This document shows, piece by piece, positions 2,963-24,944 of a stretch of 26,063 nt of DNA. Both the position numbers and the translations under genes were made by a program. Below the pieces are notes generated by a model. That model was given only the letters and a program-made list of their open reading frames with translations, made no database searches and was not told the DNA's origin. This stretch comes from a virus. The stretch is taken from positions 1 through 26,063 of IMG/VR virus record IMGVR_UViG_3300020034_000063. One strand, written 5' to 3'. Each line of letters opens with the position of its first letter. The stretch's first letter is position 1.

Positions 2963-3168
2963 AAGGCCAGCTTCTCTCTGTGTGCGGCTTCGATGGCCGC
3001 TTCCGCTGCATTCAAATAAATGGCGCGGTCGTACGCCGTCGCCTGCGCGAAGATCACCCCGTCAAACCCCGCCAGCAGATCCGCAATCGCATGCACGCGT
3101 TCGCGCCGCTGCGCCATGCGCGCCTTGTGGATCGATTCCGCCGTCATCGGCTCGCCGTGGCGCTCCAT
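2959..3168 (-). CDS. 69-aa hypothetical early protein
   Basis: Starts MERHGEPMTAESIHKARMAQ and continues with helical, charged sequence to AHREKLAL. The ATG at 3168 lies 1 nt after the stop of the membrane mini-protein; an internal ATG at residue 8 is an alternative. Its stop overlaps the Erf start (ATGA), so it is coupled to Erf translation. I see no metal, nucleotide-binding or membrane motif and do not recognise the family. Confidence 0.6.
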   Translation of the reverse strand: MERHGEPMTAESIHKARMAQRRERVHAIADLLAGFDGVIFAQATAYDRAIYLNAAEAAIEAAHREKLAL

Positions 3169-3169
3169 C

Positions 3170-3322
3170 TCAACTCCGGCGTCCCCAGATGGCCCTGAGC
3201 CGCGCTTCCCGATCCTTCGCCTCGCGGCGCTCGATCAATAACTCCCCGATGTAGAGCCATGACCAGCCCGCGACCAGGAGCAGCACGACAAACAGCAGAA
3301 TGAACAGCGTCTGGCCGCTCAC
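3170..3322 (-). CDS. 50-aa single-pass membrane protein
   Basis: Read from the GTG at 3322, which overlaps the stop of the upstream membrane gene (GTGA). Sequence MSGQTLFILLFVVLLLVAGW gives one transmembrane helix at residues 5-22, followed by a strongly charged tail (IERREAKDREARLRAIWGRR) likely in the cytoplasm. It is expressed early, beside the immunity and recombination genes. Small early membrane proteins in temperate phages often alter entry of other phages or host envelope processes, but this sequence gives no specific evidence for that. Confidence 0.6.
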   Translation of the reverse strand: MSGQTLFILLFVVLLLVAGWSWLYIGELLIERREAKDREARLRAIWGRRS

Positions 3323-3447
3323 CAGAGCCACCAGAGGCCGAGAAGGACCGCGACGCCAGCGATCGCCATCGAGACGGCGATCCAGAAGCCGACCCGGCCG
3401 AGCGCGTCGCCTTCGTCGTAGGGGGGATCGAGGTGGCGATCGCTCAT
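3319..3447 (-). CDS. 42-aa single-pass membrane protein
   Basis: Begins MSDRHLDPPYDEGDALGRVG and then has one hydrophobic helix (residues 21-42, ending LLGLWWLW) reaching the C-terminus. The N-terminal half is acidic and soluble. The ATG is 3 nt after the excisionase-like gene's stop, and its stop overlaps the next gene's GTG. It lies directly upstream of a second membrane mini-protein, so the two may act together. Aromatic residues at the very C-terminus would sit at the far membrane face. Confidence 0.6.
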   Translation of the reverse strand: MSDRHLDPPYDEGDALGRVGFWIAVSMAIAGVAVLLGLWWLW

Positions 3448-3450
3448 GGG

Positions 3451-3669
3451 TTAGCCGACCTTTCGAATCTGGCCGCGCCGGACGAGAAACTGATTCGCGA
3501 GGTACCGATCGACGAGATCCGCGCGGTAGCGGGGCCGGCCGCCGATGCGGGGTTGCAACTCCTCGAGCATCGGCAAGCCCCCGGCGGCGCGCAGCCGGTC
3601 GAACGTCGGCCGGGAGATTTGCAACGCGACGAGCAGATCGGCAATCGTGTAACAGCGTCGCGCCGTCAT
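3451..3669 (-). CDS. Excisionase/AlpA-like helix-turn-helix protein
   Basis: 72 aa from the ATG at 3669, chosen because it overlaps the Cro-like stop (ATGA); an upstream ATG at 3708 would overlap that gene by over 40 nt. The sequence RCYTIADLLVALQISRPTFD followed by RLRAAGGLPMLEEL and GGRPRYRADLVDRYL fits the winged-helix HTH of excisionases and MerR/AlpA-type regulators: helix, turn, recognition helix (SRPTFDRL), wing, then a final helix. In an integrase-carrying phage with immunity genes next door it is the best candidate for the directionality factor of excision. A second early transcription regulator is the alternative. Confidence 0.65.
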   Translation of the reverse strand: MTARRCYTIADLLVALQISRPTFDRLRAAGGLPMLEELQPRIGGRPRYRADLVDRYLANQFLVRRGQIRKVG

Positions 3670-3887
3670 GCGACCCTCCGGCGACGCGGCGAGGTTTCCG
3701 CGATGCACGCCGCGACGACTTGGGGCGTCGTCCCCAAGCCATTCGCCAGCGCCGCCACGGTGGCGTACGTCGGATTCCGGACCTTGCCGAGTTCGAGTTG
3801 ACTGATCGTGGTGGACTGAACGCCGGTGTTCTGCGCGAGGCGATACTGGCTCAGCCCGGAGCGGCGGCGGAGCGCGCGGAAATTCAT
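3666..3887 (-). CDS. Cro-like XRE-family repressor
   Basis: 73 aa. Starts MNFRALRRRSGLSQYRLAQN, then TGVQSTTISQLELGKVRNPT and YATVAALANGLG, a complete five-helix XRE/HTH_3 domain (residues 2-60) with recognition helix around STTISQLE. The rest is a short basic tail. Small size with no dimer/peptidase domain and position as the first gene of the leftward early operon, divergent from a second HTH gene, match lambda-type Cro. Its own promoter is predicted so close that transcription would begin at or within a base of the ATG, giving a leaderless mRNA. No clear ribosome-binding site is visible. Confidence 0.8.
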   Translation of the reverse strand: MNFRALRRRSGLSQYRLAQNTGVQSTTISQLELGKVRNPTYATVAALANGLGTTPQVVAACIAETSPRRRRVA

Positions 3888-3893
3888 TCCACG

Positions 3894-3922
3894 ATTTTAG
3901 AATTGCAATTCTAGAATGTCAA
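3894..3922 (-). promoter_or_regulatory. Leftward early promoter (PR/PL-like) for the cro operon
   Basis: On the minus strand: TTGACA (3922-3917), a 17-nt spacer, then TAAAAT (3899-3894), close to consensus sigma-70. The spacer contains all but two bases of the 16-bp palindrome at 3898-3913, so repressor binding there would block RNA polymerase. Start of transcription is predicted near 3887, the A of the cro ATG. Confidence 0.75.
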
Positions 3923-3953
3923 GACTTACTTTCTATAGTAGAATGCGATTCCA
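3898..3953. promoter_or_regulatory. Operator cluster between the divergent repressor genes
   Basis: Four copies of TAGAAT or its complement and one near-copy form symmetric sites. O1 is TAGAATTGCAATTCTA at 3898-3913, a perfect 16-bp palindrome. An overlapping TTCTAGAA lies at 3910-3917. A third is TTCTA-TAG-TAGAA at 3931-3943. A fourth is TAGAAT-GCG-ATTCCA at 3939-3953, with one mismatch. The centres are about 8, 23.5 and 9 bp apart (roughly 3905.5, 3913.5, 3937 and 3946). This is the expected binding region for the Cro-like and CI-like proteins; which protein prefers which site cannot be told from sequence. Confidence 0.7.
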
Positions 3954-3977
3954 TCTATGGGCACTTGAGGTCAACTC

Positions 3978-4421
3978 TTGCGTACCACCGTCGAAGAATT
4001 TTCTTACAATGCCAACGTGACGCCCCAAGACCTCTGGAAGCGCGTGGGGAAGAAACTCCTTCTCCACCGAAGCGACAAGCATTGGAACGCCAGCGAGGTT
4101 GAACGCAACGGCGGGCCGAGTTATAAGACGGTGCTCGCGATTGAGCACGGGCGGGCGGGCAACGTGGAGAGCCTCACCCTGCACGCGCAGGCGCTCGGGC
4201 TCTCCATTGTCGATGTCATCAAAGCCGTGCTGGACGAAACCGCCGAACCGCTCAGCGCCGAGTGTGTCCAGGTCGTGCGGAAATTTCAATCAACGACCGT
4301 CGACGGCCGGACGGCGCTCTTGGCGTTGGCGAACGCGCTGCCTGATGACGCATCAGCGCCACCAAGGCCAGATCGATTGCCGCCCGACCGGACGGCGCAC
4401 ACGCGGCGTAAGACGCCGTGA
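3978..4421 (+). CDS. CI-like XRE-family repressor
   Basis: 147 aa from a TTG at 3978, supported by GAGG at 3967-3970 spaced 7 nt before it; a GTG at 4017 is the alternative. The sequence has a helix-turn-helix region at about residues 18-70: LWKRVGKKLLLHRSDKHW, then SYKTVLAIEHGRAGNVESLT and LHAQALGLSIVDVIKAV. It is divergent from the Cro-like gene across a shared operator region, the lambda-type immunity layout. The C-terminal part (EPLSAECVQVVRKFQ, then a proline/arginine-rich tail) is short and lacks the serine-lysine peptidase domain of LexA/CI, so induction by RecA-stimulated self-cleavage is not expected. Confidence 0.7.
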   Translation: MRTTVEEFSYNANVTPQDLWKRVGKKLLLHRSDKHWNASEVERNGGPSYKTVLAIEHGRAGNVESLTLHAQALGLSIVDVIKAVLDETAEPLSAECVQVVRKFQSTTVDGRTALLALANALPDDASAPPRPDRLPPDRTAHTRRKTP

Positions 4422-4513
4422 CCCAGGCGAGTTTGCGCTGGAGATGCTTGCGCGACAGGGAGCCCTTCGACTCCTGGCGTCGCGTGGCAGGCGAAGACGA
4501 CAACGGCATGTAG
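4418..4513 (+). CDS. Possible 31-aa ORF after the repressor
   Basis: A GTG overlaps the repressor stop (GTGA) and reads MTQASLRWRCLRDREPFDSW then RRVAGEDDNGM to a TAG. The only support is translational coupling and position. In another frame 4444-4605 is also open and could encode a basic peptide. The whole stretch 4422-4690 shows no clear gene. It does contain TTACTTTCT at 4646-4654, also found in the operator region (3926-3934), and an AT-rich patch near 4610-4625 that could be an integrase promoter. Confidence 0.2.
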   Translation: MTQASLRWRCLRDREPFDSWRRVAGEDDNGM

Positions 4514-4690
4514 GCAAACTCCCGGACCTAGAGGGAATCGACACAGGGAAAAACGGAAACAACGTGCCACGATACCCGCCGCGTCATAGAAAAGCAATCC
4601 TGTAATCGCGGTTTTATTTCCTATACGGAAGCCCAACTAGAGCATTTACTTTCTGTTCTAGGAACCGAGGATCACACACGTGCGAGAGGC

Positions 4691-6172
4691 ATGCCGCGGC
4701 GACACCGTGACGGTCAGGACGACACGAAACAGTCTGTCCACTACCGTGCAGAGCCGGCAAGATTTCTAGGACATTCGTACCACATGCCCAGCCGTCCCAC
4801 ACCCCCGAAAGGGTCCGGCATCCACCCTAAAAATGCGGGCTACCGGATCAAGGTCGTCATTGACAAGCTCGCGCACTACCACAGCTGCACCGCGGCGGAG
4901 GCCTTCCGCACCAAACCGCCGTTCCTGATCCTGCTCAACTGGAAGACACAGCAGCTCGCGATCCATGGCGGGGGCGACGCGGCCCCGCTCACCGGGAGCC
5001 TGGCCGTGGACATCACGGACTATGCCGACAGCGGCGCCGACGCGCGGCGCGTCACCTACCTGTGGAGATGGGCCGACGAGCTCGGCGCGGATCGCCCGAC
5101 GTTGGGGATCGCGGCCATCGAGTTGAACGACGTGATGCAGCGGTGGCGTACGACGCCGACGAACCAGGAGCGCCGCTTCCGACAGGGGCGTCCGAGTGCG
5201 GCGACTGGCCTGGATGATCAGAGCCTCAAGAAGCGCCGCGATCATCTCGCCGTGTTCGTCGATTGGGTGATTGCGCGCGACGTGCGCCAGGAGCATCCGA
5301 GCGCCGCGCCGGGCGAGCTCGCCGCGTTCACCGCGACCGCGCAGGCGACGCGGAACCCGGTCCGGTTCAGTCAGAAGTACAAGAACCCGGCGCCGAGCAC
5401 GCTCGAGGCCCGCGGGACCGACGAGCTCCACATTCTCGATCGCATCCTGGACGCGATGCCGGCGATCCGCTCGCACAAACCCCACGCGCCGGCCGTCCCA
5501 AGCGCCGCGCGCCTGATCGCCGCCGTGGAGATGCATACCGGGATGGCGTTCGCGACCATTGATCGGCTCGTGCGCAGCGACTTCGACCCGCTGGCCGCGA
5601 CGCTTCGGTTGCCCGAACGCATCAAAGGAGAAGGCGTTCCCCGCCGCACCGTGCCCCTCTCGAGCCGTGGCGTGATCGCCTTGCGCGCCTTCGACGCCGC
5701 CGGGCTCTGGGCCACGCTCACGCCCGCGAGCAGTAACACGACCCGCCGAGCGGTCCGGAAGGCGGTGGCCAAGGTGCGCGCCGCGCTCGCGGCCGAAGAC
5801 GCCGCCCTGGAGGCCGGTGGGGTCCACGTCGACAGTCCCGCGCGTCACGCGGTCCGGACGAGTCTGGCGAAGCTGCAGACGTGCGGCACCCAGAAGGATT
5901 TGCGGCACAGCTTCGCGAGCGTGGTCTTTGCGAAGACGGAGGGGAACGAAGCGATCACCGGGCGGCTCCTGCAGCACGCGCCAGGCTCGCCGTTGACGGC
6001 CCGCTATGCGAAGGCGGCGCAGGCCGAAATTGACCGGCGTGCGGTCGCGAAACTGGACGCGCCGGAGACGCCAGCGCCGAGGCCGTCGGGAGACAAGCGG
6101 GAAAAGAAAGTGCCCGCGAAAGTGCCAAACGTCGCCAAACCTAGGTTAATACGGCGCTTAGCTGCCAAGTAA
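4691..6172 (+). CDS. int: Tyrosine recombinase (phage integrase)
   Basis: 493 aa; an internal ATG at 4784 (residue 32, MPSRPTPPKGSG) is an equally good start and would give 462 aa. It integrates the phage at the host tRNA-Glu gene. Residues 110-215 look like the helical SAM-like core-binding domain (YLWRWADELG, DWVIARDVRQEH); 270-445 is the catalytic domain. Visible catalytic residues are K312 (IKGEGVPRRTVPL), R405 in KDLRHSFAS, H429 in LLQHAPGSPLTARY and nucleophile Y439. Two positions differ from the usual pattern: the box I arginine site reads TGMAFATI (A286), and the His before LRH is K402. The gene stops 1 nt before the tRNA-derived core and its last codons carry two copies of the putative arm-type sequence. 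Confidence 0.88.
   Translation: MPRRHRDGQDDTKQSVHYRAEPARFLGHSYHMPSRPTPPKGSGIHPKNAGYRIKVVIDKLAHYHSCTAAEAFRTKPPFLILLNWKTQQLAIHGGGDAAPLTGSLAVDITDYADSGADARRVTYLWRWADELGADRPTLGIAAIELNDVMQRWRTTPTNQERRFRQGRPSAATGLDDQSLKKRRDHLAVFVDWVIARDVRQEHPSAAPGELAAFTATAQATRNPVRFSQKYKNPAPSTLEARGTDELHILDRILDAMPAIRSHKPHAPAVPSAARLIAAVEMHTGMAFATIDRLVRSDFDPLAATLRLPERIKGEGVPRRTVPLSSRGVIALRAFDAAGLWATLTPASSNTTRRAVRKAVAKVRAALAAEDAALEAGGVHVDSPARHAVRTSLAKLQTCGTQKDLRHSFASVVFAKTEGNEAITGRLLQHAPGSPLTARYAKAAQAEIDRRAVAKLDAPETPAPRPSGDKREKKVPAKVPNVAKPRLIRRLAAK
6107..6126 (+). repeat. Paired GAAAGTGCC repeats, left arm-type integrase sites
   Basis: Two copies of GAAAGTGCC at 6107-6115 and 6118-6126, starts 11 bp apart (one helical turn), inside the 3' end of int where they encode a KVPAKVP repeat. 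They match the pair on the other side of the tRNA-derived core and lie 48 bp from it. The pattern resembles lambda Int arm-binding sites. Confidence 0.6.
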
Positions 6173-6763: not shown

Positions 6764-7168
6764 ATGAATCGCACGACTCTTCTCGGCGTCGTCCTCGCAC
6801 TCGGCTTGTTCACGGGTGGCGTCTATGCCCAGGACAAAATTTTCGCCTTCAAAGGCGCGCACCTGGATGTGCCGCTGTCAGACGCGCCGTGCGCGTTGAT
6901 GGGCCCGGTGTCCATGACCGTCTATGATAAGAATCCGTGGATCGTCTACACCTGCAACACTGGACAGGTGATCCTCCGGCGATACATGAATCCGAACGAC
7001 AGCGCGATCACCCCCGTCCCGGTGATCATCTTCCCGGATCAGCAGCCGGAGCCGGTGCCGACGCCCCAGCTGCCGACCGCCACGGTGCGCTGCACGGTGC
7101 CCGGCATGGTGACGAGCATCTACGGTGGGTGTGTGCCGCCGAACCATCCGTCGGCACCCAAGCGGTAA
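6764..7168 (+). CDS. Secreted 134-aa protein, lysogenic conversion candidate
   Basis: Has a clean signal peptide: MNRTTLLGVVLALGLFTGGV then YAQDK, with cleavage expected after YAQ or VYA. The mature part is about 110 aa, beta-rich (MTVYDKNPWIVYTCNTGQVI), with Cys at SDAPCALM, YTCNTG, VRCTVPG and GGCVPP, so two disulphides are possible in the periplasm. Near residues 85-100 there is a proline-rich linker. It is the third gene of an independently promoted operon convergent with the late genes, and stops abut at 7168/7169. The combination of own promoter, export signal and position is typical of a phage gene that changes the lysogen's surface. Target unknown. Confidence 0.6.
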   Translation: MNRTTLLGVVLALGLFTGGVYAQDKIFAFKGAHLDVPLSDAPCALMGPVSMTVYDKNPWIVYTCNTGQVILRRYMNPNDSAITPVPVIIFPDQQPEPVPTPQLPTATVRCTVPGMVTSIYGGCVPPNHPSAPKR

Positions 7169-7925: not shown

Positions 7926-8927
7926 TTACGGCCGAATTCGAATGAGATGCGCACGCCCGTCGCTGAGCGTCCGCGTATACGCCCGGATGCACTCCGGACC
8001 CTCCAGGTCGTCGCGATGCCGATACGCCCCGCGCTGAAACGCCAGCGGCACGCTTCGGGCCCCTGCGACCCAGGCCTTCGCGCACTCCAGCTCCGGGCCG
8101 TCCGCGAACCGCGTGGAAAACTTGCCACTCGTGGAGTGATAACAGCTGCCCGCGCACAGCAGCGCCCCGCCCATCGCGGCGTCGTAGGCGTGCACGGCGT
8201 TGCGGTCGCGATCGGGATACCGGGTGTTCTCGTTCGATAGGCAAGGCGTCCCGCTTTGGTCCGCGAGTTCCATCGCGTTGTGGCCGACCTTCCGCTGGAA
8301 CTCGTCCAGGTCGTTCGTGTGATAGAGCTCGTAATCCCACGGCGGCCGCGGCGGCATCTTGTCGGCGCCGTTCGAACCGCGCGAGATCAGCACCCCAGCG
8401 GGCCGGCGCAGATCAGATGCGACGGCGTTGTCGTGCTGGTCGCCTTCGTTCACGAGCTCGAGCAGGACATGGCCGCGCCCGCGCACCGCGTCGGCCGTGC
8501 GGTCCAGATGCTGCTGCTGGTCCCACCGATTCGGCATCAGCGTCTGCGTCTGCGTGAACACCGTGAGCTCCACCACCATCCCGTACTGCCCACACAGGCT
8601 GACGAAGGATCCCAACGCCTCATAGAAATCCGGATAGTCGGCGGGGTGGATCCGACTACCGTCGAAGCCGCCATTGCGTCCCCCGATCACCGACTGATTG
8701 AGCAGCCAAACTCTCAGACAGTTGAAGACGATCTCTTGACGCTGCAATAAGATCGGTGTGACAGATTCGCGGTCAAGATACCGCTTGAACAGGCTGAAGT
8801 CGGACGCTTCAATCGCGGTCCACGGCTGGCCGTTCATCGTGAAGAAGCGGCCGTCGATGCCCAGCGCGCCCACGGTACTCCCACCCCCGCCGCCATAGAC
8901 ACGCGCCCGCGGCAGATCGAGATTCAT
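7926..8927 (-). CDS. TIM-barrel glycoside-hydrolase-fold protein
   Basis: 333 aa from the ATG overlapping the upstream stop (ATGA). It resembles clan GH-A (GH5-type cellulase) barrels: a short N-terminal substrate loop (FFTMNGQPWTAIEASDF), NCLRVWLLNQ at about 69-78 (strand 2), a helix YPDFYEALGSFVSLCGQYGM, VELTVF at 119-124, then HVLLELVNEGDQ (153-164) with N160-E161 at the acid/base position and CLSNENTRY (229-237) with E233 as the likely second carboxylate. It would cleave a polysaccharide such as host capsule, EPS or cell-wall glycan. It lies where phages often keep lysis or tail depolymerase genes. Substrate cannot be read from sequence. Confidence 0.7.
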   Translation of the reverse strand: MNLDLPRARVYGGGGGSTVGALGIDGRFFTMNGQPWTAIEASDFSLFKRYLDRESVTPILLQRQEIVFNCLRVWLLNQSVIGGRNGGFDGSRIHPADYPDFYEALGSFVSLCGQYGMVVELTVFTQTQTLMPNRWDQQQHLDRTADAVRGRGHVLLELVNEGDQHDNAVASDLRRPAGVLISRGSNGADKMPPRPPWDYELYHTNDLDEFQRKVGHNAMELADQSGTPCLSNENTRYPDRDRNAVHAYDAAMGGALLCAGSCYHSTSGKFSTRFADGPELECAKAWVAGARSVPLAFQRGAYRHRDDLEGPECIRAYTRTLSDGRAHLIRIRP

Positions 8928-10096
8928 GCGGCCTCGAGCACGAGCACCGGCCCGGCCAATGTCCCGTCCTGCACGCGATACGCGAGGTTCGTACCGTCGG
9001 GCTGCGTCGTGCAGAAGGGTTGTTCCCACTCCCCGATCGCCCCCGCCGGTCGAAGCTCAAGGCCGTTCGGCCCGAAAGACAGCTGACGATTGCCAGCCAC
9101 GAGCAGCGCATCGAAGCGCCCGTTCTCGTGGGCCGTCAGTTTGATCCGCTCCCATCCGTCGCCTTTGGTGCGGTCGGCATAGAGCGTGTCCGGCGCGCTC
9201 GGATCGACGCCGATGTACTTTCCGTTGAGTCGTGCGTAGACATCCATGTGACCTCCAAATCGAGCGGCGGGGGGCAGAAACGGTGCGGGCGGCGGCGGAT
9301 CGGGCGGGCGCGGCGGAATTGGGGGCTTCGGCGGCGGCTCCGGTGGCGGCAGCGGCGGTTTGGGCGGCACGCCAGGCGGGGCACTCGCATCCGCGAGCTC
9401 CTCGAACGACCCGCAGAACACCCGCACCGTCCCACTCCCGGCCGTGGCAATCGCCCACCGATCGCCGTCGACCGCGCATTTCGGCGTGAAGCTGTCGAGC
9501 GGCCACCACAGCAGATCGGTAAATCCGCCGGCCACCCAGCGCACGCCCCCCGTCGGGCCTTCGCCCACCGCGAGCGGATAGGCAAAGGCCGGGATCGTCG
9601 CGCCGTTCAGCGCCTGCCGATCTTCGTCAATCGTCACGACGTGCCCATCATCCAGGATGCGCGAGAGCCCCGTCGGCGCTCCCAGGCGCGGCTGCGTGAT
9701 CGCGCCCGTCCGCAGATCGATCTTCAGCACCCGGTAGGGCTGCGCAGGCTCACAGTACGCAAAGCACCCCGCCCCGAACGCGGTCGGATTGCTGAGCGCA
9801 TCAAATGTCCGGACCGTCCCCGCCGTGAGGTTGCGGAGCTGCAGCCGCGCGCCGTCGTGATACGCCAGCCACAGCAGAGCCTCAAAGACATAGAGGCCAG
9901 GAAACGCGGGCGACTCCGCCTTGAGACTCCACCGCCGCCACTCCTGCGCCAGCCCCAGGTCTGTGCCGTCCCAGACGTAGACGACGAGCGCGCCCGGGTG
10001 CCGGGGATCGCCTTCGCGGACGGCCATCCACCCCTGCCAGGCATCCAGAGCGACGGCGGGAAAGACGCCCATCGGCCAGTTGATCCGCAGACTCAT
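8924..10096 (-). CDS. Propeller-like plus fascin-like modular protein
   Basis: 390 aa in three parts. Residues 1-235 have repeated strand pairs with W/D motifs (DAWQGWMAVREG, LLWLAYHDGARLQLRNL, RVLKIDLRTG, WAIATAGSGTVRVF), which suggests a beta-propeller. Residues 239-277 are a proline-rich linker. Residues 285-390 (YARLNGKYIGVDP, then RFDALLVAGNRQLSFGPNGL) match the fascin-like beta-trefoil pattern, where each lobe has x-A-x-NG-x-Y-ig-v. Such trefoils usually bind carbohydrate. It is coupled by ATGA to the glycoside-hydrolase-fold gene, so the pair may recognise and cut the same glycan on the host surface. The propeller call is weaker than the trefoil call. Confidence 0.5.
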   Translation of the reverse strand: MSLRINWPMGVFPAVALDAWQGWMAVREGDPRHPGALVVYVWDGTDLGLAQEWRRWSLKAESPAFPGLYVFEALLWLAYHDGARLQLRNLTAGTVRTFDALSNPTAFGAGCFAYCEPAQPYRVLKIDLRTGAITQPRLGAPTGLSRILDDGHVVTIDEDRQALNGATIPAFAYPLAVGEGPTGGVRWVAGGFTDLLWWPLDSFTPKCAVDGDRWAIATAGSGTVRVFCGSFEELADASAPPGVPPKPPLPPPEPPPKPPIPPRPPDPPPPAPFLPPAARFGGHMDVYARLNGKYIGVDPSAPDTLYADRTKGDGWERIKLTAHENGRFDALLVAGNRQLSFGPNGLELRPAGAIGEWEQPFCTTQPDGTNLAYRVQDGTLAGPVLVLEAA

Positions 10097-10524
10097 GCGG
10101 GCGCCTTCGCCGTGTGTGTCGCGTCGGTTGGCCGCGGGCGATCCTCAGCGCGGCGATCCTGGGGCACCACGCCCGCATCCTGCGGCACGGTGGCCAGCGC
10201 CGGCACCAACGCGGCGGCCTGCGCCAGCAGTCGCTTGGTGACGTTCTCCTGCGCGAGCTGCTCACGGAGGAGCAGGTTCTCCATCTTGAGCGCGGTCTCC
10301 CGCCCCTCCGCCGCGGTTTTTTCGCTGTTGACGTGCCCCTTGATCGTCTCGGTGTCCTTCGCGACGGTGAGGAGGTCGCCCCGCGTGAGCTCCTGCTGCC
10401 GACTCACCACCGTCACGCGGAGCGCGGTAATGACGGCGACAATGCCCGTCACAATCGAGCCGATGACCGTGACGATCATGCCGCCGATGAGGGTAATCGT
10501 CAGCGGCTCGGGCCAGTTGGTCAT
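10093..10524 (-). CDS. Membrane-anchored coiled-coil protein (holin or i-spanin-like)
   Basis: 143 aa. An N-terminal membrane helix covers about residues 9-37 (LTITLIGGMIVTVIGSIVTG then IVAVITALRV). It is followed by a charged region (SRQQELTRGD, ETIKGHVNSEKTAAEGRET) and a long helix (LKMENLLLREQLAQENVTKR) predicted as a coiled coil, and a Pro/Ala-rich tail. The topology of one anchor plus a coiled coil fits Rz-type inner-membrane spanins. Overlaps its neighbours by 4 nt on both sides and follows an exported coiled-coil protein, a possible partner. No family is confirmed. Confidence 0.5.
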   Translation of the reverse strand: MTNWPEPLTITLIGGMIVTVIGSIVTGIVAVITALRVTVVSRQQELTRGDLLTVAKDTETIKGHVNSEKTAAEGRETALKMENLLLREQLAQENVTKRLLAQAAALVPALATVPQDAGVVPQDRRAEDRPRPTDATHTAKAPA

Positions 10525-10775
10525 TTAGGGGCTTTCGTAAACGTCCCGGTGTCCGTGTTGACGATCCAGCCCACGCGATCCCGCTCCAGATCCTGTTTCA
10601 AGGTGGTGCGCTTCGCCTGCCAGTCGGCGACTTCGCGCTGGATGATCACGCTTTCGAGCCGGAGGTTCTCGACGCGCAGGGTTTCGATCGGCGTCAGCGC
10701 CGGCGCGGTGTCCTTCGCCTCCTGCGCGACGAGCGGCACCGTGAGCAGGAGCAGCACGAGCAGGGGCACGCGCAT
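10521..10775 (-). CDS. Exported 84-aa coiled-coil protein
   Basis: The ATG at 10775 overlaps the fibre gene stop (TGATG). A signal peptide (MRVPLLVLLLLTVPLVAQEA) is followed by a heptad-like helix (PIETLRVENLRLESVIIQRE, then VADWQAKRTTLKQDLERD) and a short end VGWIVNTDTGTF. The secreted coiled coil next to the membrane-anchored coiled-coil gene recalls a two-component spanin pair, but there is no lipobox cysteine at the cleavage site as in a true Rz1-type lipoprotein. A periplasmic adaptor is the alternative. Confidence 0.5.
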   Translation of the reverse strand: MRVPLLVLLLLTVPLVAQEAKDTAPALTPIETLRVENLRLESVIIQREVADWQAKRTTLKQDLERDRVGWIVNTDTGTFTKAPK

Positions 10776-11959
10776 CAATAGGACCGGCAGAGCACGTAAA
10801 ACTCAGCCCCGAGCGCCGACGACACCCAGGAGAACCCGATCGATGATGTCGAGGCGCTAGTCAGACCCACTACTGGGAAGGTCGAATTGCTCGTGGCCAG
10901 CACACAGATCGGGGTCGTGGTCCACGTATGCCCAAAGTTGACCGTGCCACTCGATGAGGCATTGGCCTGCTTGACCACCTTGAACGCGTAATCGGTCCCG
11001 GCGATGGTCGGACTCGTGCCGAACCCGGTCGCAATCGTCGGCGTGCCGCTGGAGTCCGCGATATTGGAGGACGCCCCGAAGGTGAAATCCCCCGCCACGT
11101 TGACGCCCCACTTGTTCCCGAACACGATCGGCCCGGTGCCAATCGCATTCAAATACAAGCCGCCCGCGCCGCTACTGCCATCCAACGCTAAGTCTGACGT
11201 GCCGCGAATACTGGATACCCCAGAGTTCCGGGTGATGACCAGCGACGCGCCCGCGGCGGGGACCATCGCATTGGTCGCATTGAGCACCGCGACGTTGGTG
11301 CCGTCGCTCAGGTCCGCAATCGCGGGCCGCACGACGGTGATCGTCCCGCCGACCGTGTTCTGTCGGAGAAATTGCGAGGCCCCGCCGGTGCCCGCCAGAC
11401 TGACGCCCGCTCCGCCTTTCGAGAGCCCGATGATCGTCGCGTTCCACGTGCCGGTCGCAATCGTCCCGATGGAGGTCAGCGCGGCCATCGTCGTGACATT
11501 CGGCTGCACGGCCGTCGAGAGCGCGCCGCCCAGCGTCGTCGCGTTGAGCGCCCCTGCCACCGTCAGGATCGTGGCGCCGACGTTCTGCGTCATGATCGAA
11601 TTGCCGACCGCATTCGACGCGGTGAACACCGGGATCGTATTCAGCGTGCCGCTCAGACTCGCGCCGGTCGCCAGCACGACGCCGTTGAAACTCAGCGTGC
11701 CGGCATTGTTGACCAGCCGGTTCGTCTGCGAGGCGGGCACGTTACTCGCGATTTCAATGAACCCGGCGGAGGTCACGGAGGCCACGTCCAGCGCGCCAGC
11801 CGTGAGCCCACCCGTGCAGGGCCCGGTCAGCGCGCATCCCACTTTCACCGAGCCCGCGGCGGTCGACGTGGACCGCAGACTGGAGACCACGGTCGGCGCC
11901 GGTTGCGCCGCGACGGTGACGGGCCAGAGCAACGCGAGGAGCAGACAGGCCTTGTTCAT
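10775..11959 (-). CDS. Fibre-like beta-structured protein with a signal peptide
   Basis: 394 aa. The N-terminus MNKACLLLALLWPVTVAAQP is a clear Sec signal (cleavage after VAA or AAQ), which is unusual for a virion tail-fibre component. The rest is Ala/Gly/Ser/Thr/Val-rich with short strand-turn repeats (LVNNAGTLSFNGVVLA, GTIATGTWNATIIGLSKGGA, TSDLALDGSSGAGGLYLNAI), typical of beta-helical or knob-bearing fibres. TGTWNAT..GLSKGGAG is common in phage fibre repeats. The C-terminal part (TPICVLATSNS, SALGAEFYVLC) looks like a globular tip. It is coupled to another fibre gene by ATGA. It may be a virion fibre or a secreted adhesin-like protein. Confidence 0.65.
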   Translation of the reverse strand: MNKACLLLALLWPVTVAAQPAPTVVSSLRSTSTAAGSVKVGCALTGPCTGGLTAGALDVASVTSAGFIEIASNVPASQTNRLVNNAGTLSFNGVVLATGASLSGTLNTIPVFTASNAVGNSIMTQNVGATILTVAGALNATTLGGALSTAVQPNVTTMAALTSIGTIATGTWNATIIGLSKGGAGVSLAGTGGASQFLRQNTVGGTITVVRPAIADLSDGTNVAVLNATNAMVPAAGASLVITRNSGVSSIRGTSDLALDGSSGAGGLYLNAIGTGPIVFGNKWGVNVAGDFTFGASSNIADSSGTPTIATGFGTSPTIAGTDYAFKVVKQANASSSGTVNFGHTWTTTPICVLATSNSTFPVVGLTSASTSSIGFSWVSSALGAEFYVLCRSY

Positions 11960-12651
11960 AGGGTTCTCAAAATCCGGGCGCCGATGAGGAAGCCGCTATT
12001 CGCGGACACAATCGTTTTGATCCCGTAGCTCTTCGCCGTCCCGCCGCCCGGGAAGGTAATGACCGCGCTGTCGGCGGTCTGCCCGGTGAGGCTCGTGATC
12101 GCACAGGTCGCGATCGGGGTATCTGGCGATCCGTCGGTGAGGTTCACCAGCGCGACGGTGAGTGTGCCGCCGACGAGTTGCACGCCGACGGCTTCGAGCA
12201 CGTAGGTCCCCAGGAGGGTGCCGGAATCCACGATCCAGACGCTCGTCCCCGGGTGCAATTTGTCGTAGGTGGCGCCCGCGGCGTAGCTCGTCGCGGTGAC
12301 TTCCGCGGCGCTGTTGCTCCCGAAGTCGAACGCGAACGCCCCCACCCCGCCCGAGGCGCCCGCATTGGTCGGACTGATGGGATCCACGGTCGGCCCGAAC
12401 GGCACGCCCAGGCTGTCCGTGATCGTCATTTTCAGGTTGCCGACGGCGGGATCCAGATAGATCACGATGCGTCCAGACGCGTCGCAGGCGGCGGGCTGGG
12501 TCCAGGCGGTCGTCAAGTCGGCGTCGTGATAGACCGGCGCGGGCGTACTGGTGCCGCTCAAAAAGAACGACAGCAGCGCCCCGGGGACGATGAACCCGTC
12601 GTCTGACAGGGCGGTGAACCAGAACGCAGGAGCCAGGGTCCCGGTGGCCAT
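11956..12651 (-). CDS. Tail-fibre/virion-attachment-type protein
   Basis: 231 aa. The first 85 residues have the layout of phage receptor-binding-protein N-terminal domains: FWFTALSDDGFIVPGALLSF, then GTSTPAPVYHDADLTTAWTQ, P..CDASGRIVIYLDPAVG and NLKMTITDSLG, where the tail-fibre consensus reads F.D.NG.PL.GG.l.fy.aGT.t...vy.d...t.......lDa.Gr....l. The remaining part is Gly/Thr/Ala-rich beta sequence ending FLIGARILRT. It probably joins fibres to the tail. A GAGGAAGAG stretch lies about 10-15 nt before the ATG. It overlaps the next fibre gene by 4 nt. Confidence 0.7.
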   Translation of the reverse strand: MATGTLAPAFWFTALSDDGFIVPGALLSFFLSGTSTPAPVYHDADLTTAWTQPAACDASGRIVIYLDPAVGNLKMTITDSLGVPFGPTVDPISPTNAGASGGVGAFAFDFGSNSAAEVTATSYAAGATYDKLHPGTSVWIVDSGTLLGTYVLEAVGVQLVGGTLTVALVNLTDGSPDTPIATCAITSLTGQTADSAVITFPGGGTAKSYGIKTIVSANSGFLIGARILRTL

Positions 12652-23684: not shown

Positions 23685-24944
23685 CTAGCCCGCCACAACG
23701 ACGCCGAGTTCCTGCCGCAGGACCGCCGTGCCATAGAGCACGTCAATGCGCTGCAGCCATTGATCGGTCAGCGCGACGTAATCGCGGATGACCCGGATCG
23801 ACTTCCCGCTCTTCCGTGACGCGGCGCGATACGCCTTGTCGGTCCCACCAGGCAGCGGCATGTCGACCATCGCGATCGTCCCGAAGTCCTTGTGGACCGC
23901 GAGATTCTGCGGGCTCTGCTTGCCGACGATCGTCGCGAAGGACGCCGCGGGCGTATCCCACACGTAGACCGGGGTATTGACCGCGGGGAGGTTGGTGACG
24001 TTCTGCAGCTGCGAGCCGGGGCCGATGATCGCCGGGCCGATCGGGATGACCATGGTCCCGGTCGTGTCACTCGTGGTCGCGGTGACGACAAAGTGCATCG
24101 TCTGGCCGGTGGACGAGAACGACTGCGGGTTGATCCCGTTGACCGGGGTCGTGGTCGACACGAAGCTGATCTTGTCGCCCGCGTTGAGCGTCGACACACC
24201 CGACTGCCAGCCGGTCGTGGTGATCGTGCTCGCGCCAGAGGCCGGGACCGCGCTGACGATCGGCGTCGACACGCCGAGCGCGCCGACGGTCTGGACATAG
24301 ATGTTCTGATCCATGTACCAGTCGGCGCCGATGGTGTTCGACTGCACCATGGAGCCGCTGTTGTACTGGGACGAGATCGCCTTCGTCGCGTTGAACAACC
24401 CCTTCAGGTTGTCCATCAGCGTGAAATCCGCGATCGGATTCAGGAACATGTTGCGCTCTTCCGGCGGCGCGGCCATGTTGTCCAGCTTGACTTTGGCCAG
24501 CCCGTAGGTCGTCAGGGACGACGGCGTGACGCCTGGCGTGCCGACAAACTCATTGAGGCCCTGGGCGAGGTTGCACACGTCCTGATCGATCAGATTCGAC
24601 AGCCGCGCAATCTGCGGCGCCAGGACCCGCTTGCGGTAGTTGTCGATGTCCAGCATGAGCTGCTGGGAGCTGACCTGCGTGTCCACGCCGCGCTGGAACG
24701 ACAGCGTGAGGGGCACTTCCGTCTCGGTGATCGCTTCGATCTGCACCGCCTGGCCGAGCCGACCGAGATAGCGCGGGGGCTTGCGGATGCGGAGCGTCTG
24801 GCCGAGCACGGCGCCGCCGAACTCGAAATCGTCCGAGTATTCCGAGTTCAGATTGATGAGCACGCTGTTCGTGTTCTCGAGCACGTCCAGCGCTTCGTAC
24901 GTGATGATGTCGTTGGTGAGCAGCGTATTGGGCGGAGGGGGCAC
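23685..24944 (-). CDS. P22-type major capsid (coat) protein
   Basis: 419 aa, near the 430 aa of P22 gp5. GTG start. The opening (LLTNDIITYEALDVLENTNS, then VLINLNSEYSDDFEFGGAVL) and GQTLRIRKPPRY, with QAVQIEAITETEVPLTL, match the N-arm and E-loop region of P22-family coats ('lt...i..ea...l.n..v....vn.dy...f......G.t..irkP'). VPLTLSFQRGVDTQVSSQQL, DNYRKRVLAPQIARLSNLID follows as the spine helix. An inserted Thr/Ser/Val-rich region at about 220-300 fits the I-domain position. The final PLPGGTDKAYRAASRKSGKS, IRVIRDYV closes the P-domain. It forms the icosahedral shell. Confidence 0.85.
   Translation of the reverse strand: MPPPPNTLLTNDIITYEALDVLENTNSVLINLNSEYSDDFEFGGAVLGQTLRIRKPPRYLGRLGQAVQIEAITETEVPLTLSFQRGVDTQVSSQQLMLDIDNYRKRVLAPQIARLSNLIDQDVCNLAQGLNEFVGTPGVTPSSLTTYGLAKVKLDNMAAPPEERNMFLNPIADFTLMDNLKGLFNATKAISSQYNSGSMVQSNTIGADWYMDQNIYVQTVGALGVSTPIVSAVPASGASTITTTGWQSGVSTLNAGDKISFVSTTTPVNGINPQSFSSTGQTMHFVVTATTSDTTGTMVIPIGPAIIGPGSQLQNVTNLPAVNTPVYVWDTPAASFATIVGKQSPQNLAVHKDFGTIAMVDMPLPGGTDKAYRAASRKSGKSIRVIRDYVALTDQWLQRIDVLYGTAVLRQELGVVVAG

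Follow-up and report, generated by a model that had tools for sequence, protein, structure and literature searches.

Virions of tailed phages, their fibres included, are normally assembled in the cytoplasm, and a signal peptide serves as evidence against a role in the virion. In tailspikes of the P22 and Pam1 type the head-binding domain and the receptor part lie in the same chain. Phage DGR proteins are described in the accessible part of PMC6199706 as being without bacterial surface-protein signals, which is taken there as support for a phage origin. The excerpts of PMC5723332 and PMC4615864 give 0–2 signal-peptide genes per phage genome for seven phages. An exported phage protein coded between tail genes is Lom of lambda (PMC12309495, partial text). 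The closest prior art that we found is a set of five Q-rule signal-peptide genes of unknown function in phages of Porphyromonas gingivalis (PMC10367356, partial text). As in the fibre described here, the signal cut exposes a Gln; unlike the gene described here, none of them is called a fibre in that part of the account. Our literature search, made outside the subscription journals and weak as evidence of absence, returned no account of a Sec-exported tail fibre.

Here we analyse a window that comprises the whole of a linear IMG/VR virus record, from a soil-type phage, of 26,063 bases with 66% GC. Judged from the sequences, the observation is real: the window encodes a tail-fibre-type protein with a conserved export signal, the export, cleavage, oxidation and virion content of this protein being putative. 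That two unrelated families keep such a signal on a fibre of the spike operon runs counter to the use of signal peptides as an argument against a virion role.

The fibre gene and its leader

The fibre-type protein of 394 residues is encoded on the minus strand at 10775–11959, as indicated by the open reading frame and by relatives of like layout. The original prediction had placed it at exactly these positions and had left the strand unstated. Its N-terminus reads MNKACLLLALLWPVTVAA/QPAPTVV, where the slash marks the predicted cut. The signal peptide reported in that prediction is readily recognized as a segment of 18 codons (11906–11959, minus strand) that contains one Lys, an eight-residue core with a mean hydropathy of 3.14 and an A-x-A motif before the predicted A/Q cut; the signals of the relatives differ in sequence. 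The layout is that of a type I Sec signal (an n-region with positive charge, an h-region and an A-x-A cut within about 30 residues) according to a crude score of our own, for which a threshold of 4.1 was set by eye.

Two other classes of envelope protein were considered and rejected. The window fibre is not a lipoprotein, as it has no Cys at position +1, where 17 of 18 records have Gln and L009 has Ile; the status is ambiguous in L002 alone, where the leader contains a Cys (LFGC). A unimolecular spanin is excluded by the Gln at +1, the C-terminus YVLCRSY and the beta character of the protein, with neither a lipobox start nor a C-terminal membrane helix.

No match to the window fibre was obtained in Pfam, PHROGs or the INPHARED phage records. 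The fibre features that could be recognized are a generic fibre repeat in the window protein itself and a Peptidase_S74 domain in one relative, L030. An action as a depolymerase, which had been proposed, finds no counterpart in the searches: no enzyme family was matched in Pfam or PHROGs at E = 1. The proposed placement on the outer surface of the host fares no better. The mature protein lacks a Cys at +1 and no membrane-spanning or autotransporter part was seen, and Sec alone would therefore leave it in the periplasm of the host, assuming this to be a diderm.

Conservation of the leader among relatives

A search with the adaptor encoded upstream of the fibre, which is blind to the signal, gave eight records, or nine with the window. 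In six of these nine (the window, L002, L007, L009, L013 and L014) the tail gene that follows encodes a fibre-like protein with a hydrophobic leader. An HNH gene on the opposite strand lies between adaptor and fibre in L002 and L007, and the L007 fibre is cut at the contig end, its leader being known by translation. The remaining three records (L015, L016 and L017, with adaptors that are 35–37% identical) have a next gene of 142 residues without a leader, and leader-bearing genes follow further on. Searches with the fibre N-terminus added 12 more records, all with a leader, in a sample that is biased by the query itself being the fibre N-terminus.

The cut junction is A/Q in 17 of the 18 records, L009 being the one that differs. 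Of 13 distinct fibres 12 score at least 4.1, against 14 of 218 other genes in a non-redundant set from these 18 records; seven of the 13 are biased through having been found with the fibre's own N-terminus. Among the six scored fibres that come from the adaptor search or from the window, five pass the threshold and L002 fails at 3.78. The HNH gene in L002 (4349–4996, minus strand) and in L007 (minus strand) overlaps the first codons of the fibre, and a new leader is present each time. Both leaders end in FA/QPA despite a quite different leader sequence. The predicted leader is conserved while its sequence changes. The signal on the window fibre is hence more than a product of chance, and it is kept beside the adaptor in relatives.

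As the relatives retain the signal, export of the fibre from the cytoplasm is probable, and as the leader is maintained despite replacement of its sequence, Sec export would be its simplest use. Export had already been suggested in the original prediction, and Sec is the likeliest use that a conserved signal of this kind points to; we consider export of the window fibre by Sec very probable. The alternative is that the leader goes unused for export, the protein folding in the cytoplasm and its hydrophobic start being either dispensable or used to anchor it in a membrane or in the virion. This would agree with the usual assembly of fibres in the cytoplasm and with the ordinary fibre body, which includes Peptidase_S74 in L030 and a generic repeat that recurs in L003 and L005 in proteins lacking a signal. 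We regard it as unlikely, given that the order of n-, h- and c-regions and the A/Q junction are kept in 17 of 18 records despite varying sequence, and that the leader was re-made after the HNH insertion. Moreover, in most records the fibre start lies against the adaptor stop or overlaps it, and thus the leader is translated.

Gln is found at +1 in 17 of the 18 fibres, and most of the remaining exported genes in these records share it as judged by eye. This recalls the Q-rule of Bacteroidetes, by which Gln stands at +1 after the signal cut (PMC5837995, partial text), and may be a pointer to the host; with the window at 66% GC, a Bacteroidota host is only a suggestion. Genome contigs scanned with the adaptor profile and the fibre N-terminus contained no relative, and consequently neither a prophage nor a named host is assigned.

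A tailspike head-binding adaptor upstream

The gene preceding the fibre (11956–12651, minus strand) encodes a tailspike head-binding adaptor of 231 residues without a signal, identified by a PDB profile search and by a match to phrog_26190 with an E-value of 9.5e-7. The fibre ATG overlaps its stop codon by four nucleotides (ATGA), which agrees with the coupling that had been proposed. A profile of nine rows, made from the window gene and eight relatives, matches PDB entry 7eeq_A ('Tailspike head-binding domain') with an E-value of 9.9e-16 and also the tail spikes 9vyg and 9vyh. Because of these matches the label of an ordinary virion-attachment gene is correct for the adaptor, which contains a head-binding domain of the P22 type. 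The domain of P22/Pam1-type tailspikes resembles the first 90 residues of the adaptor; unlike those spikes, which carry the receptor part in the same chain, the adaptor of the window stands alone. No receptor or enzyme domain was recognized within the adaptor chains, which in the window's clade stand alone at 227–245 residues. Exactly one adaptor is present in each of the 12 records examined and a single profile-detected fibre in 11 of them, the twelfth (L009, in record G002) having a divergent fibre.

Cultured phages were compared through INPHARED. Neither the window adaptor nor the fibres of L013 and L014 has a match there, and the head-binding domain was searched with L014 and L017 as queries, which gave 32 and 38 records, respectively. 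The matches span only about the first third of the query and lie within longer proteins. Fifteen adaptor-domain loci were taken, and L055 and L063 were dropped for want of a usable gene call under the match. In 12 of the 13 loci that remain, the adaptor domain forms the N-terminus of one chain of at least 385 residues; the protein of phage DSL-LC05 has 170. None of the 13 head-binding-domain proteins carries a leader. The next gene was checked in eight of the 13 loci, and one of the eight, PBR31 gp35, has a leader, with a score of 3.86 that falls below 4.1.

Conserved start and exchanged end of the fibre

The first 45 mature residues (11771–11905, minus strand) form a conserved stretch with a pair of Cys at mature positions 24 and 30, as seen in the alignments and in a table of Cys positions. 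Between the window and L002, identity is 80% over residues 1–45 of the mature fibre and 21% from residue 221 onwards to the C-terminus, and six of 18 aligned signal residues agree. The middle repeat of the window fibre (residues 140–192) is found as well in structural proteins of L003 and L005 that have no signal.

A structure model of the whole fibre is useless (pLDDT 39). The C-terminal domain, modelled over 91 residues (10778–11050, minus strand) with Cys at mature positions 334 and 373, is predicted with a pLDDT of 83.5 and a pTM of 0.75. The description of the protein as repeat-beta is fair in view of the beta-rich repeats visible by eye, the weak whole-protein model and this confident all-beta domain. 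According to the alignment, the domain is common to the window, L031, L034, L036, L044 and L047. Its model has a single significant match in BFVD, a protein of an uncultured Caudovirales phage (E = 1.3e-5). A fold search of the PDB with the same model gave nothing at E = 0.001, and the carbohydrate-binding names in the match list were therefore set aside. The L030 fibre ends in a Peptidase_S74 fibre chaperone with an E-value of 9.3e-8, above the cut-off, and the L002 and L013 fibres have C-termini of other kinds. Sequence comparison shows a conserved N-terminus joined to a swapped C-terminus, which is what receptor-binding fibres show.

Of 16 full-length fibres, 15 have an even number of Cys in the mature protein, as do ten of 11 distinct ones; L002 has seven, an odd number, and L014 has none. 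These even counts, taken in the fibres only, are no more than suggestive of disulfides. The exported fibre is probably disulfide-bonded.

A second leadered family in cultured phages

Xanthomonas phage PBR31 gp35, which adjoins the tailspike, starts MKKLIALFSLFCTSAFG/ATLNPIQLLNPAG, and Burkholderia phage BcepC6B gp19 starts MKKLIAILLAVPALALG/ATLAPIQLLNPAG. Both cuts were placed by eye, and our script places them two residues earlier. The two proteins are annotated as 'tail fiber protein' and 'putative structural protein'. Section 3.3 of the PBR31 paper (PMC10975493) deals with the tailspike gp34 and notes that the esterase gp40 has a leader, gp35 being absent from that part of the account.

The C-terminal parts of gp35 and gp19 belong to the fibre family phrog_11393 (E = 1.1e-15 and 2.3e-14, respectively). 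The matches cover positions 319–538 (gp35) and 281–538 (gp19) of the 538 positions of the family, so that its first 280–318 positions are unmatched. Members of phrog_11393 from Pectobacterium and Klebsiella phages have an N-terminal part of their own. Tail fibres of Phimunavirus and related podoviruses share the C-terminal domain with gp19 and gp35, keep an N-terminal domain of their own and show no sequence kinship to the window fibre; two fibres of this type were translated (PP90 orf49 and Mulvp2_69), and neither has a leader.

Like the window fibre, gp19 and gp35 have a Sec-type leader, an even number of mature Cys and a position right after the tailspike and before the lysis genes. Unlike it, they have their junction before ATL instead of A/Q and adjoin a complete spike, and no sequence relation to the window fibre was found. 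A second, sequence-unrelated family thus appears to place a leader on a fibre end at the equivalent position between tailspike and lysis genes. The complete tailspikes measure 711 residues in PBR31 and 637 residues in BcepC6B (gp18, pectate-lyase-like), and for this reason the signal-bearing fibre is an extra protein in both phages. In BcepC6B the fibre/spike gene gp18, whose annotation notes a similarity to Bbp9 of Bordetella phage BPP-1, is immediately followed by gp19. The receptor-binding protein gene mtd of BPP-1 follows bbp9 in the same position as gp19; in contrast to the leadered fibres, Mtd has no signal peptide, and we take it to be of a different fold family.

Fate of the exported fibre

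In the model that we prefer, the fibre would be made as a Sec precursor from the spike operon, signal peptidase I would cut the chain at A/Q after export, and the exported chain would fold and form disulfides in the periplasm. Once the envelope breaks at lysis the mature fibre would meet the progeny virions, its conserved N-terminus docking onto the adaptor and its variable C-terminus acting as the receptor-binding tip. On the sequence evidence we give a probability of roughly 0.4 to this late route, which puts the fibre on the virion when lysis brings it together with the spike adaptor outside the cytoplasm. In its favour are the strict adjacency of adaptor and fibre in the window's clade and record G011, which showed no further large gene of fibre type with composition as the sole criterion. 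The stand-alone adaptor, the even Cys counts, the Peptidase_S74 end of the L030 fibre and the place of mtd after bbp9 in BPP-1 also speak for it. Against it are the normal assembly of tailed virions in the cytoplasm, the leaderless fibre-like, beta-helix or GH30 genes in G006 and G001, the complete spikes of PBR31 and BcepC6B in combination with the match of only the fibre C-terminal part to phrog_11393, the odd number of Cys (seven) in L002, and the leaderless next gene in three of nine adaptor-found records.

The original prediction had offered a secreted decoy or depolymerase; the depolymerase falls away and a soluble decoy becomes the main rival. The exported fibre would here be a free receptor-binding tip that never joins the virion and masks the phage receptor in the periplasm and on lysis debris. 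Such masking would keep progeny from binding to dead envelopes or else prevent superinfection. The tip would work like T5 Llp, though as a soluble protein. This reading fits the cultured cases PBR31 and BcepC6B better: the leader replaces the N-terminal half in gp35 and gp19, the tip region alone matches ordinary fibres and a complete tailspike adjoins. The gene also adjoins lysis genes and another exported gene, and a swapped C-terminus suits a receptor binder equally. On the other hand, the adaptor of the window's clade would be left without an obvious receptor domain, special conservation of the mature N-terminus would be unneeded, and no resemblance of the exported tip to the spike of the same phage was seen (gp18 is pectate-lyase-like). 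We judge this fate to be possible, if doubtful.

A place on the virion and a soluble decoy are about equally plausible, the virion being slightly favoured for the window's clade because its adaptor has no recognized receptor domain, all 12 records examined contain a single adaptor, 11 of them contain a single profile-detected fibre, and conservation of the mature fibre lies at its N-terminus. A fibre that joins the virion would mean an extracytoplasmic step in the assembly of phage tails; one that stays off would be a soluble receptor blocker encoded by the phage. As the cultured phages PBR31 and BcepC6B carry the second family, the question is testable. A wider proposal, which we put forward only tentatively, is that some tailed phages split the spike, so that the adaptor stays on the virion, the receptor-binding fibre travels via Sec to be cut and oxidised, and the tip is gained only at lysis. 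If true, a split spike with an exported tip could stop virions inside the dying cell from binding its receptors.

It is very unlikely that the fibre is an adhesin or envelope factor exported to serve the host or lysogen outside lytic growth, in the manner of lambda Lom. Phage-coded Sec proteins between tail genes do exist (Lom, in the partial text of PMC12309495) and an integrase-like reading frame can be discerned by eye in the window. However, the fibre overlaps translationally with a late virion gene instead of forming a separate unit, and no promoter-like site was found between 7500 and 17000, which is a weak test.

Neighbouring genes

The gene following the fibre (10521–10778, minus strand, probable ATG at 10775) encodes an 85-residue protein with a coiled-coil-like body. 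It begins with a signal-like segment, and the signal peptide that had been predicted for this gene is therefore supported. A short signal-bearing gene resembling it lies nearby in L021, L022, L023 and L047 and on the opposite strand in L037–L042 and L046. A function as a dedicated periplasmic chaperone was set aside on account of the counterpart on the other strand in the L037 group. Further downstream, 10093–10524 (minus strand) encodes a membrane protein of 143 residues that is holin- or spanin-like by position only, with no family match above the cut-off.

Two more genes on the minus strand have counterparts in L002 and lack a signal and a family match: 8924–10096 encodes a protein that is rich in beta structure and has a proline-rich linker, and 7926–8927 encodes a protein that is glycosidase-like by eye. 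The major capsid protein is of the P22 type (23685–24944, minus strand; PF11651, E = 6e-19). Scans of the window for tRNA and Rfam families returned none.

On the plus strand, 4784–6172 resembles a tyrosine integrase by eye, with an R..H..Y-like motif near its end and no Pfam match, which suggests a temperate phage. Near it, 6764–7168 (plus strand) encodes a 134-residue protein with a signal of its own (GVYA/QDK), four mature Cys by eye and no Pfam match; it is possibly a lysogeny or exclusion factor.

Other signal-bearing proteins were noted in the compared records. Record G006 encodes a beta protein of 768 residues with IPT/TIG domains (L071, 7497–9803; PF01833, E = 1.8e-34) and one of 216 residues without a family (L072, 18613–19263). 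In the more distant relative L015, three signal-bearing genes follow one another at 3030–5016, one of which encodes a fibre-like protein of 428 residues with a QVTIIPS start. The cultured Rhodoferax phage P26218_24 has a signal-bearing protein of 169 residues (L053, 6718–7227) two genes past the head-binding-domain protein.
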